Positions 1 through 18,444 of a stretch of DNA of 35,241 bases are shown here, piece after piece. The stretch is from Nitrospirota bacterium (GTDB lineage: Bacteria > Nitrospirota > Thermodesulfovibrionia > JACRGW01 > JBFLZU01), in the NCBI GenBank assembly GCA_040756155.1, contig JBFLZU010000118.1, forward strand, positions 1 to 35,241. Direction: 5' to 3'. The notes under the pieces were generated by a model. The model saw only the letters and a program-made list of their open reading frames with translations, was not told the DNA's origin and made no database searches. Each line of letters begins with the position of its first letter. The stretch's first letter is position 1. The position numbers were made by a program, and so were the translations under genes.

Positions 1-530
1 TATGCACCATTCATGCCTGTAGAGAAGTTACAATATATCTTTGCTCTCTTTGCCATCTTTCCATTCAATCCCTTTCGTCTATAAAGATAATGAGCAGATA
101 TCTTATAATAGAATCTCCCGAGTGTTCCAGAGAGCGTTCCATCTCTGTTTTCCTTCCACTGTATCTTTCTCTCATTATCGTTTATGACTACTATTAAGTA
201 TATCTTCCCTGCCTGCATCCCCCTTATATCTACCTCGCTTGGATTAGGGATACCTTTCATTGGTCCAAACTGTGTATGTGAATGAAAGTCTCCGAGTACC
301 TGTAGCCTTTCGAATTTCTTGAGTATCTCTTCTATTTTTTTATGTCTCCTGCGCTGAAAGACAACACCCTTCGGTTTTCTCTTCGCTGTCTGGTATGTGA
401 AGGCATGTTCTATTATAAACCTGTCCTCAAGCCGATAACCAAGAAGTATGCCAAGACATTCTTTTTTATATACCTCTGCTGAGCTGAGAACCAGATCCAT
501 AAAAGCGCTTTCTGAAATATACACCTTCAT
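1..530 (-). CDS. JAMM/MPN (JAB, M67-like) metallopeptidase, at the left edge
   Basis: Reading leftward from the ATG at 530-528, the frame stays open for 176 codons to base 1, so the end lies at or just past the edge. The protein starts MKVYISESAFMDLVLSSAEV. It carries the JAMM zinc signature: Glu near residue 24 (ECLGILLGY), His-Ser-His near 81-83 (DFHSHTQFG), then Pro-Ser-x-x-Asp (NPSEVD). Prokaryotic members of this family are zinc isopeptidases or peptidases that trim ubiquitin-like sulfur carriers such as ThiS/MoaD-type proteins; the substrate here is inferred only. The His-to-Ser spacing is slightly longer than in many members. It is 29 bases downstream of uspA on the same strand with no strong Shine-Dalgarno sequence, so it may be read as the last visible gene of that chain. 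The basic C-terminal tail after the MPN core is unassigned. Confidence 0.85.
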   Translation of the reverse strand, partial: MKVYISESAFMDLVLSSAEVYKKECLGILLGYRLEDRFIIEHAFTYQTAKRKPKGVVFQRRRHKKIEEILKKFERLQVLGDFHSHTQFGPMKGIPNPSEVDIRGMQAGKIYLIVVINDNERKIQWKENRDGTLSGTLGRFYYKISAHYLYRRKGLNGKMAKRAKIYCNFSTGMNGA

Positions 531-559
531 CTTCTATAAAAATAGTATAAATATAACTC

Positions 560-1012
560 TTATAATTTATATTCCGGCACCTTCACAGAGAGCACAGGAC
601 ATGGAGCACTTCTAACTACCTTCTCAGCAGTACTACCAAAGATAATACGTTCAATACCTCTGCGTCCATACGTCCCGATAACGATTAGATCAATTTTTTC
701 GTCAGAGGCTGCCTTTATTATCTCCTCTGCAGGCAGACCTCTAACCAGGATCGTTTTTATATCCTTGATTTCCTTTAGAGCTTCTCTGCAATACCTTTCC
801 AGATCCTTTGCAGCATTTTCTTCCATTTCCTTGTATATCTGATCAAGCTGCATGTGAGGCACATGCCACCCGGCAGTCGCAGATATATCATGTATCACAT
901 GCATGAGATAAAGTTTTGCACCATATTCTTTAGATAGTGATGCTGCGTACTTCAGTGCGTTATTTGAACCTTCTGAAAAATCTGTTGGTAAAAGTATTCT
1001 TTCGATCTTCAT
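560..1012 (-). CDS. Universal stress protein, UspA family
   Basis: A 150-residue single-domain Usp protein beginning MKIERILLPTDFSEGS. Near the C-terminus it has the ATP-binding pattern G-x2-G-x9-G-S/T (GTYGRRG...FGST), followed by the usual last strand APCPVLSV, so it probably belongs to the nucleotide-binding subgroup. I chose the ATG at 1012 rather than the upstream in-frame start at 1033 because AGAGGAGG sits a few bases before it, and because the longer form would run into galT. It follows galT by ten bases on the same strand and is probably cotranscribed. Usp proteins are cytoplasmic, usually dimeric, and linked to starvation, redox or energy stress; the exact role here is not shown by the sequence. 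Confidence 0.92.
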   Translation of the reverse strand: MKIERILLPTDFSEGSNNALKYAASLSKEYGAKLYLMHVIHDISATAGWHVPHMQLDQIYKEMEENAAKDLERYCREALKEIKDIKTILVRGLPAEEIIKAASDEKIDLIVIGTYGRRGIERIIFGSTAEKVVRSAPCPVLSVKVPEYKL

Positions 1013-15340: not shown

Positions 15341-17047
15341 CTACATCTTCTCAGGTGCTGATACACCGAGTATTGTCAATGCGTTCCTGAGCGTGATGCC
15401 ACACGCATTTATAAGATAAAGCCTTGCATAGGTCAACTCCTGGTCTTCAGAAATAATCCGATATTTATTATAATAACTATGAAGATAAGATGCAAGTTCA
15501 TGAAGATAGGATGTAAGCCTGTGAGGCTCAAGGGCAATAACAGCCCCTTCAAGAATAAGTGGATAGAAACAGATAAGCCTGAGGATATCTATCTCTTCAG
15601 GAATATCAAGTCTTGTAAGATTTACCTTATTTATCTCAGGGGGGATGGCGCCTTTCTCTTTAGCGTGTCTGAAGACGCTCGATATCCTCGCATGGGCATA
15701 CTGAACATAATAAACCGGATTTTCTTCTGATTGTTTCTTAGCAATCTCCAGATCAAATTCAAGATGACTATCAGGACGCCTTGTAAGAAATATAAATCTT
15801 GTAGCATCAACACCTACCTCCTCTACAACCTCCCTGAGGGTTATAAATTCTCCTGTCCTTGTTGACATCGCCACTGGTTTTCCACCCCTAAGCAATGTCA
15901 CAAGCTGTACAAGGAGTATCTTTAACGGTTCAGGGTCATAGCCCAGTATCTTTACCATCGCCTTCATTCTCGGGACATAGCCGTGATGATCAGCACCCCA
16001 TACATCAATTATCTTTTTGAATCCCCTCTCGAATTTATTCTTATGGTATGCAATATCAGAAGCAAAATATGTTTTCTCTCCACCTCTACGGACGACTACC
16101 CTGTCTTTATCGTCACCGAAGTCTACTGATCTCAGCCAGAGGGCGCCATCCTCTTCATATATATGTCCATCTTGCTGCAATTCCTTTATAATCTTATCAA
16201 CCTCTCCATTTCTGTAAAGGTCACTCTCAGAAAACCACTTATCAAACTTCACACGAAATAGGCTTAAATCATTCTTTATTCCATCGAGTATCTCTCCTGC
16301 TGTATACTCTGAAAAGAATGCGATGCATTCTTCTTCAGAAACCTTCGTCAAAGAGTATTTATCGCTGTAGTTCGAGAAGAGATGTCTTGCAATTTCTCTG
16401 ATATAAGCTCCTGCATATGGGCTCTCTCTGCCTTGTAGGCGATGATAAGATGACTCATCTATCAAGCCATTTTCTTTAAGTATCTCCTGATACCTAAGAT
16501 ATGTAGAGACGCCGAGATTCTTCATCTGTGTCCCTGTATCATTTATATAGTACTCACGATGGACATCGTATCCTGCCACCACTGACAGAAGATTCGCAAT
16601 CGCATCCCCGACAGCTGCACCCCTCCCATGCCCAATATGTAAAGGTCCTGTCGGATTGGCGCTTACGAACTCTACCTGAACCTTTAAACCCATTCCTGTA
16701 TCAATCCTCCCATAATCACTACCCTTTTCAACAATATCCCTCAGGGTCTCATACCAGTAGGACTTTTTAAACCTGAAGTTTATAAATCCTGGACCAGCGA
16801 TATCTACGCTTTCGATAGCGTCACTGCATTCTATCGCTCTGAGAAGACTTTCTGCGATCTTTTTTGAATTACTTTTAGTCATCGAGGCTATTGTCATCGC
16901 TACAGTAGTTGCAAGGTCTCCGAATCGGTTATCTCGTGGTATCTCTATGGTTATCTGTGGGGTATCTTTAAGGCTCAGCGTGCCATCTGCTCTCGCCTTC
17001 TCGATGGCATTTTCGATGAGTTTTGTTACAATATCTTTAATTCTCAC
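15341..17047 (-). CDS. argS: Arginyl-tRNA synthetase
   Basis: 568 residues, class I. An N-terminal Add-1 domain precedes the HIGH motif (VSANPTGPLHIGHGRGAAVGD, His137-His140). The KMSK-like loop reads KPVAMSTRTGEF, as is usual for this enzyme, which often lacks the second Lys. The C-terminal anticodon-binding helical domain ends NALTILGVSAPEKM. It charges tRNA-Arg and needs the tRNA to activate arginine. It lies about 140 bases after ahcY on the same strand, separated by a structured palindromic element. Its stop is about 100 bases before the start of the citrate-module operon, which has its own promoter. Confidence 0.97.
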   Translation of the reverse strand: MRIKDIVTKLIENAIEKARADGTLSLKDTPQITIEIPRDNRFGDLATTVAMTIASMTKSNSKKIAESLLRAIECSDAIESVDIAGPGFINFRFKKSYWYETLRDIVEKGSDYGRIDTGMGLKVQVEFVSANPTGPLHIGHGRGAAVGDAIANLLSVVAGYDVHREYYINDTGTQMKNLGVSTYLRYQEILKENGLIDESSYHRLQGRESPYAGAYIREIARHLFSNYSDKYSLTKVSEEECIAFFSEYTAGEILDGIKNDLSLFRVKFDKWFSESDLYRNGEVDKIIKELQQDGHIYEEDGALWLRSVDFGDDKDRVVVRRGGEKTYFASDIAYHKNKFERGFKKIIDVWGADHHGYVPRMKAMVKILGYDPEPLKILLVQLVTLLRGGKPVAMSTRTGEFITLREVVEEVGVDATRFIFLTRRPDSHLEFDLEIAKKQSEENPVYYVQYAHARISSVFRHAKEKGAIPPEINKVNLTRLDIPEEIDILRLICFYPLILEGAVIALEPHRLTSYLHELASYLHSYYNKYRIISEDQELTYARLYLINACGITLRNALTILGVSAPEKM

Positions 17048-17061
17048 TTTTTACTATCTTT

Positions 17062-17187
17062 ACCACCACACCAGAAAGCCCTGTCTGCAAAGACAGGGAT
17101 GAATGGCCTGAATTCCTCGCAAAGCGAGTAACAGGGAAAGCCACCCCTGCACCAAAATCTTTGGTGTGAGGGTAAAGGTGTGGTGGT
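17062..17187. repeat. 126-bp structured element with terminal inverted repeats and three inner hairpins
   Basis: The ends ACCACCACACC (17062-17072) and GGTGTGGTGGT (17177-17187) are exact inverted repeats. Inside are CCCTGTCT-GCAA-AGACAGGG (17079-17098, a GNRA tetraloop), CTCGC-AAA-GCGAG (17116-17128) and CACCAAA-ATC-TTTGGTG (17150-17166). The right end touches the ahcY stop codon. It fills the ahcY-argS gap. It could be a miniature non-autonomous mobile element (the first hairpin followed by ATGAATGG recalls ends of IS200/IS605-type elements) or a structured RNA. No transposase is present. Confidence 0.75.

Positions 17188-18444
<1,257 letters not shown>

Follow-up and report, generated by a model that had tools for sequence, protein, structure and literature searches.

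We analyzed a 35,241-nt stretch of a Nitrospirota genome (hereafter, the window), in which the gap between argS (17047) and ahcY (17188) is nearly all taken up by one palindromic element. An earlier note, made from the letters alone, had described this as a 126-bp structure with exact 11-bp terminal repeats and three perfect hairpins, one with a GCAA loop, and all of these features are present. The element extends slightly farther, to 17059–17191, because the word TTTAC stands at each end. The features of the locus are as follows.

15341–17047, minus strand: argS, the gene downstream of the element
17059–17191, plus strand: whole element including both flanking TTTAC (read from the sequence)
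17059–17063, plus strand: left TTTAC, putative target and left cleavage site (constant among copies)
17064–17191, plus strand: inserted segment, 128 bp, itself ending in TTTAC (read from the sequence)
17062–17072, plus strand: left arm of the exact 11-bp inverted repeat, ACCACCACACC
17075–17078, plus strand: putative guide AAAG, directly 5′ of the left hairpin (by position and by the IS608 parallel, as in the available part of PMC5934647)
17079–17098, plus strand: left hairpin, 8 bp, GCAA loop (fold and covariation)
17099–17106, plus strand: ATGAATGG, 3′ of the left hairpin, common to other copies and to the left end of an IS200-type TnpA locus (L122)
17116–17128, plus strand: middle hairpin CTCGC-AAA-GCGAG, 5 bp (fold and copy alignment)
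17137–17140, plus strand: second AAAG, ahead of the right hairpin, putative right guide (copy alignment)
17149–17171, minus strand: nested insertion of 23 nt, placed at the TTTAC (minus strand 17176–17172) within the right hairpin loop
about 17150–17166: right hairpin, 7 bp, perfect (read from the sequence)
17177–17187, plus strand: right arm of the exact 11-bp inverted repeat
17187–17191, plus strand: right TTTAC, putative right cleavage site (read from the sequence)
17188–18444, minus strand: ahcY, the gene upstream of the element

The ahcY stop codon, TAA, is the complement of TTA (17188–17190) within the right TTTAC of the element. When the flanks are joined at TTTAC, this stop codon lies about a dozen bases ahead of the argS start.

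The predicted RNA fold of the element (−61.5) was far below the mean of dinucleotide shuffles (−38.1; z = −6.25) and was equaled by 0 of 200 of them, and its DNA fold gave z = −7.25, again with 0 of 200 shuffles equaling it. With the gap coordinates, these values bear out the view of a structured element filling the space between the two genes. The exact 11-bp inverted repeat alone is not beyond chance in the 35-kb window (six overlapping counts, against 0–6 in 20 mononucleotide shuffles); despite this, the fold and the dispersed copies described below make the element significant. In a scan of the window for palindromes bordered by TTTAC, the element was the sole match, and 20 mononucleotide shuffles yielded one match altogether.

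Copies, borders and distribution of the element

We investigated whether the sequence recurs, as the earlier note had suggested, and found that it is dispersed rather than unique: a DNA search with the element gave seven matches in its own genome, and a 15-mer with two or fewer mismatches hit 19 places there, some of them being matches to unrelated genes. A scan of about 1.6 Mb of fetched loci, with an upper length bound near 235 nt, found 139 distinct TTTAC-palindrome sites. Their lengths range from 32 to about 207 nt, and the genome of the window accounts for about 39 of them. The copies read in this genome fall into several subfamilies on one plan, namely TTTAC, an arm, AGAAAG or AGAATG, one or more hairpins, the complementary arm and TTTAC. 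Two side observations bear on this set. In some relatives (L084, L086, L087 and L103) the copies have TTGAC, not TTTAC, as their terminal word; this would point to a sister family that recognizes a different target. Near several elements (L006, L102 and L104) stands a different repeat, also widespread, with the form CATTGCGAG...CTCGCAATGAC.

The closest copies of the window element are two 105-nt inserts, one in the same genome (L002) and one in a genome from another family of the class (L328, in G011), and all three align end to end. The additional 23 nt of the window copy sit exactly at the minus-strand TTTAC of the right hairpin loop, and about the first 22 nt of this nested insertion are identical to the letters with which the truA insert (L003) begins. 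From this position and this match, the likeliest history is that one element inserted into another at the word that it targets, the nested copy being incomplete. In an alignment of 10 copies, the left module (AGAAAG-hairpin-ATGAATGG) showed compensatory changes: five of ten hairpin pairs were altered on both sides, a value reached in 1 of 500 shuffles.

Of the 5-mers that stand as direct repeats on the two sides of palindromes, TTTAC/GTAAA was the most frequent (124 sites), followed by GTTTA (29) and others at five or fewer, counts in which ascertainment was partly by TTTAC, as the loci had partly been fetched with TTTAC-bearing patterns. The base 3′ of the right TTTAC was strongly biased toward T and against G (T 74, C 33, A 26, G 6; n = 139; background.228/.292/.328/.153; p = 1e-16). 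None of the upstream positions showed a strong base bias, and this one-sidedness lends the element polarity. Orientation relative to the lagging strand, assessed by GC skew, was unbiased (61 vs 78, p = 0.17). We also sought an orthologous empty site; argS did not adjoin ahcY in the other 29 of the 30 loci, so none was found, and TTTAC was constant in the copies.

With at most one mismatch allowed, a 17-mer taken from the most abundant subfamily occurred in 58 of the 230 genomes of the class, with backward controls near zero. A canonical copy of the window subfamily, used as a DNA query, had matches in 11 of the 230, several of them short. Another, exact 17-mer was found at no fewer than 117 loci in named genomes, and among the matches listed for it, the record titles included Nitrospirae/Nitrospirota, Deltaproteobacteria/Syntrophaceae, Nitrospinota, Omnitrophota, Planctomycetota, Patescibacteria and others. 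Two viral contigs hint at a possible link to phages.

Copies inside protein-coding genes

Sites were scored as intragenic when at least 60 codons were open on each side and at least 200 in all. By this rule, 17 TTTAC palindromes were intragenic, and 15 of them were in frame and free of stop codons. The two that were not open were L056, with one stop, and the window copy, whose chance antisense frames make it an artefact of the rule. Under a looser scoring, seven of eight sites were in frame, the exception being L185 (103 nt). The 15 in-frame sites, whose proteins were named by Pfam in 10 cases and by eye in the remainder, include TruA (33 nt), a NagZ-like protein (138 nt), a TPR protein (207 nt), a GH57 branching enzyme (105 nt), an MqnA-like protein (105 nt), a histidine kinase (87 nt), Ppx/GppA (33 nt), DnaG (72 nt), FdhD (33 nt), a BamA-like protein (96 nt) and CbiB (105 nt). 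In TruA, DnaG and Ppx, the three of the 15 that were aligned, the inserts correspond to gaps against solved homologs, and truA is a single-copy gene in the assembly. Outside the rule, in-frame inserts were found in a VAT-like AAA ATPase (33 nt) and a glutamate-synthase-like protein (42 nt), an insert of 66 nt in a membrane ORF, and a window-type copy in frame at codon 5 of a mobA-like gene, all four named by eye.

In two genera (L294 and L317), the same site of one gene carries one insertion with flanks 86–88% identical; this common insertion was therefore either kept through divergence or moved along with the gene. Lengths divisible by three were favored even among the sites that the rule did not count as intragenic, where 38 of the 76 representatives of clusters had such a length (p = 0.002). 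Among long sites of this class, the +0 and −0 frames were each open in 10 of 23 when the length was divisible by three, versus 3 of 22 and 0 of 22. This excess is suggestive only, the class still including insertions at gene ends, such as the N-terminal L002.

The in-frame copies would add peptides to genes of uncultured bacteria rather than break them. MAG proteins can contain peptides made by the element, such as FTPLE..FLTGFT and VNPVRK..SNG, and these can mislead alignments and annotation. A separate observation concerns a pseudopilin-like gene of Candidatus Omnitrophota UBA12090 (L193, about 123–794, minus strand), in which a 69-nt element has its end precisely at the prepilin-type motif TGFTLIEL, part of which the FLTGFT ending of the element would rebuild.

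Candidate enzymes and alternative explanations

We consider it fairly probable that the element is a palindrome-ended, non-autonomous mini-element that inserts 3′ of TTTAC, itself ends in TTTAC and travels in single-stranded form, mobilized by a Y1 (HUH) transposase that works in trans; its mobility, its enzyme and its translation are inferred. In IS608, according to the available text of PMC5934647, left cleavage occurs at TTAC, the left hairpin has an AAAG guide at its foot, and C is preferred over purines after the target. By analogy, excision and insertion of the TTTAC element would proceed with the guide at the hairpin foot pairing with TTTAC and the transposase being supplied in trans, and selection inside genes would keep only in-frame, stop-free copies. 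At the window locus, insertion at the ahcY stop codon would have widened the space before argS from about a dozen bases to 140 bp, with a possible effect on argS expression.

The genome of the window offers no obvious source of such an enzyme. The earlier note had proposed looking for full-length IS200/IS605 or TnpB partners with matching ends, and none was found: TnpB (PF07282) is absent from the assembly, which is 96.94% complete, no IS200-type TnpA is present, and no autonomous copy with these ends appeared among the fetched loci. A search there for TTTAC-arm ends 300–2600 bp apart returned only two chance pairs, and on reading by eye neither held a Y1 gene. The copies in this genome may be relics of an enzyme lost or not assembled. 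Elsewhere, an IS200-type TnpA locus (L108) in G187, a genome with 31 type-D matches, has the right end AATG-hairpin-TTC-TTTAC, and no TTTAC was found near its left-end hairpin. Two other TnpA left ends (L121 and L122) carry a hairpin-ATGAATG signature similar to the left module of the element, among 30 loci tried, about 10 of which had no recognized ORF. The AAAG/AATG foot, the TTTAC borders, this right end and these left ends make a Y1/HUH enzyme in trans the best guess, and by this analogy the mobilizing enzyme is probably a Y1/HUH transposase. Counting against this reading are the lack of any Y1 gene but a RAYT in the window's genome, the 18 matches in a genome with no Y1_Tnp hit (G042), the exact terminal repeats and the unbiased lagging-strand orientation.

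The only Y1 gene of the genome is RAYT-like (NF047646, 80.5 bits against a cut-off of 80), which raises the alternative that the element is of the REP/REPIN type and that this RAYT mobilizes it. In its favor, Y1_Tnp was commoner in element-positive genomes (50 of 58) than in others (116 of 172; Fisher p = 0.006, kinship ignored), and the elements at L004 and L083 lie close to RAYT sequence. At L004 (1–230), an apparent relic of a RAYT N-terminus, recognized by eye, adjoins an element and lies near an S4/RluD-like N-terminus; a tblastn search with the RAYT gave no match at this place. We nevertheless regard this alternative as unlikely: the hairpin foot is AAAG or AATG, not the REP-type GTAG/GTGG, and only 1 of 20 RAYT loci had a TTTAC palindrome in the 2–5 kb taken. 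The RAYT gene of the window's genome (L026:114–870, contig C108) bears an inverted GAACCGTC motif on its flanks, as do its four relatives at 61% identity or more, so that all five loci of this type (L026, L345, L353, L354 and L356) share it; RAYTs of this type thus seem to possess an end motif of their own, and the RAYT was rejected as the cognate enzyme. A further alternative, quite improbable in our view, is that such palindromes spread or grow without a dedicated transposase, by template switching, hairpin capture or recombination between copies. The many sizes and nested forms fit it, as do the 18 matches without Y1_Tnp in G042, but the constant TTTAC at each end and the polarized base that follows point to a sequence-specific enzyme.

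The earlier note had weighed a miniature mobile element against a multibranched RNA. If the gap between the two genes held an attenuator or other functional RNA, this would account for the strong fold and for one hairpin (17098–17079) that, read in the direction of transcription, weakly resembles a terminator, and beyond the fold nothing spoke for the multibranched form. Rfam gave no match at E ≤ 1, the same sequence lies in frame within mobA and cbiB, and the ahcY–argS pairing is itself not conserved, which together make this reading highly improbable. A TnpB omega-RNA or other known structured RNA was likewise rejected (no TnpB in the genome and no Rfam match). The mobile-element reading, in turn, is backed by dispersed copies, TTTAC at each end, the nested insertion and in-frame copies in unrelated genes.

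Comparison with known mobile and palindromic elements

The element shares its short, non-autonomous build and terminal inverted repeats with DDE-type MITEs; its direct repeat is always TTTAC, and is therefore a fixed site, not a duplicated random target as in that group. With IS608 and the IS200/IS605 family, it has in common subterminal hairpins, AAAG at the foot of its left and right hairpins, and the cleavage-site-like TTTAC, whereas it differs in its exact terminal inverted repeats, the lack of an internal gene, TTTAC at both ends and in-frame insertion into genes. The likeness to this family proposed earlier thus stood for the left hairpin module, seen in 10 copies and with a similar module 5′ of TnpA at L121 and L122, and failed on the exact terminal repeats, the absence of TnpB and the RAYT-like nature of the sole Y1 gene. 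The reservation that long terminal repeats are untypical of the family also holds, as the available text of PMC7290912 states that it has none. Given these repeats and the absence of an IS200-type TnpA from the genome, we do not file the element in IS200/IS605.

REPs of the GTAG/CGTC families, as described in an excerpt of PMC3733652, occur in ORFs of several species, including the tRNA pseudouridine synthase A gene of S. maltophilia. Short palindromic repeats within ORFs are thus a common trait, whereas the TTTAC element lacks the GTAG/CGTC tag, has TTTAC at each end and does not flank RAYT genes.

A close parallel in build is with the Rickettsia palindromic elements (RPE) and their Wolbachia relatives, which in the available parts of PMC2229807 and PMC10969869 are palindromes of about 105–150 bp with terminal inverted repeats, found in frame in unrelated conserved genes and between genes. 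The TTTAC family differs in its hosts, which are other bacteria, in its constant TTTAC boundary and AAAG foot, and in sizes from about 33 nt upward. Selfish DNA that survives in conserved genes by being translatable is best known from Rickettsia, and transposase-driven movement of such small elements was then without experimental support, according to the available part of a 2007 review (PMC2229807). Since the present family is large and has clean borders, a constant target word and transposon-like ends, its mechanism is directly testable. Among the best-ranked matches in the open-licence literature, subscription papers lying outside this scope, we found no description of the TTTAC family. A broader proposal, which we advance tentatively and think doubtful, is that of a superfamily in several mostly uncultured phyla with an IS608-like guide and target rule, shaped by passage through genes (multiple-of-three length and one open frame per strand), which places peptides in essential proteins and would give RPE-like elements the mobility rule that they have lacked. 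The element is a protein-coding palindromic element, a kind already known, and what is new is the TTTAC family with its testable mobility rule; by analogy, it would work like the Rickettsia palindromic elements.
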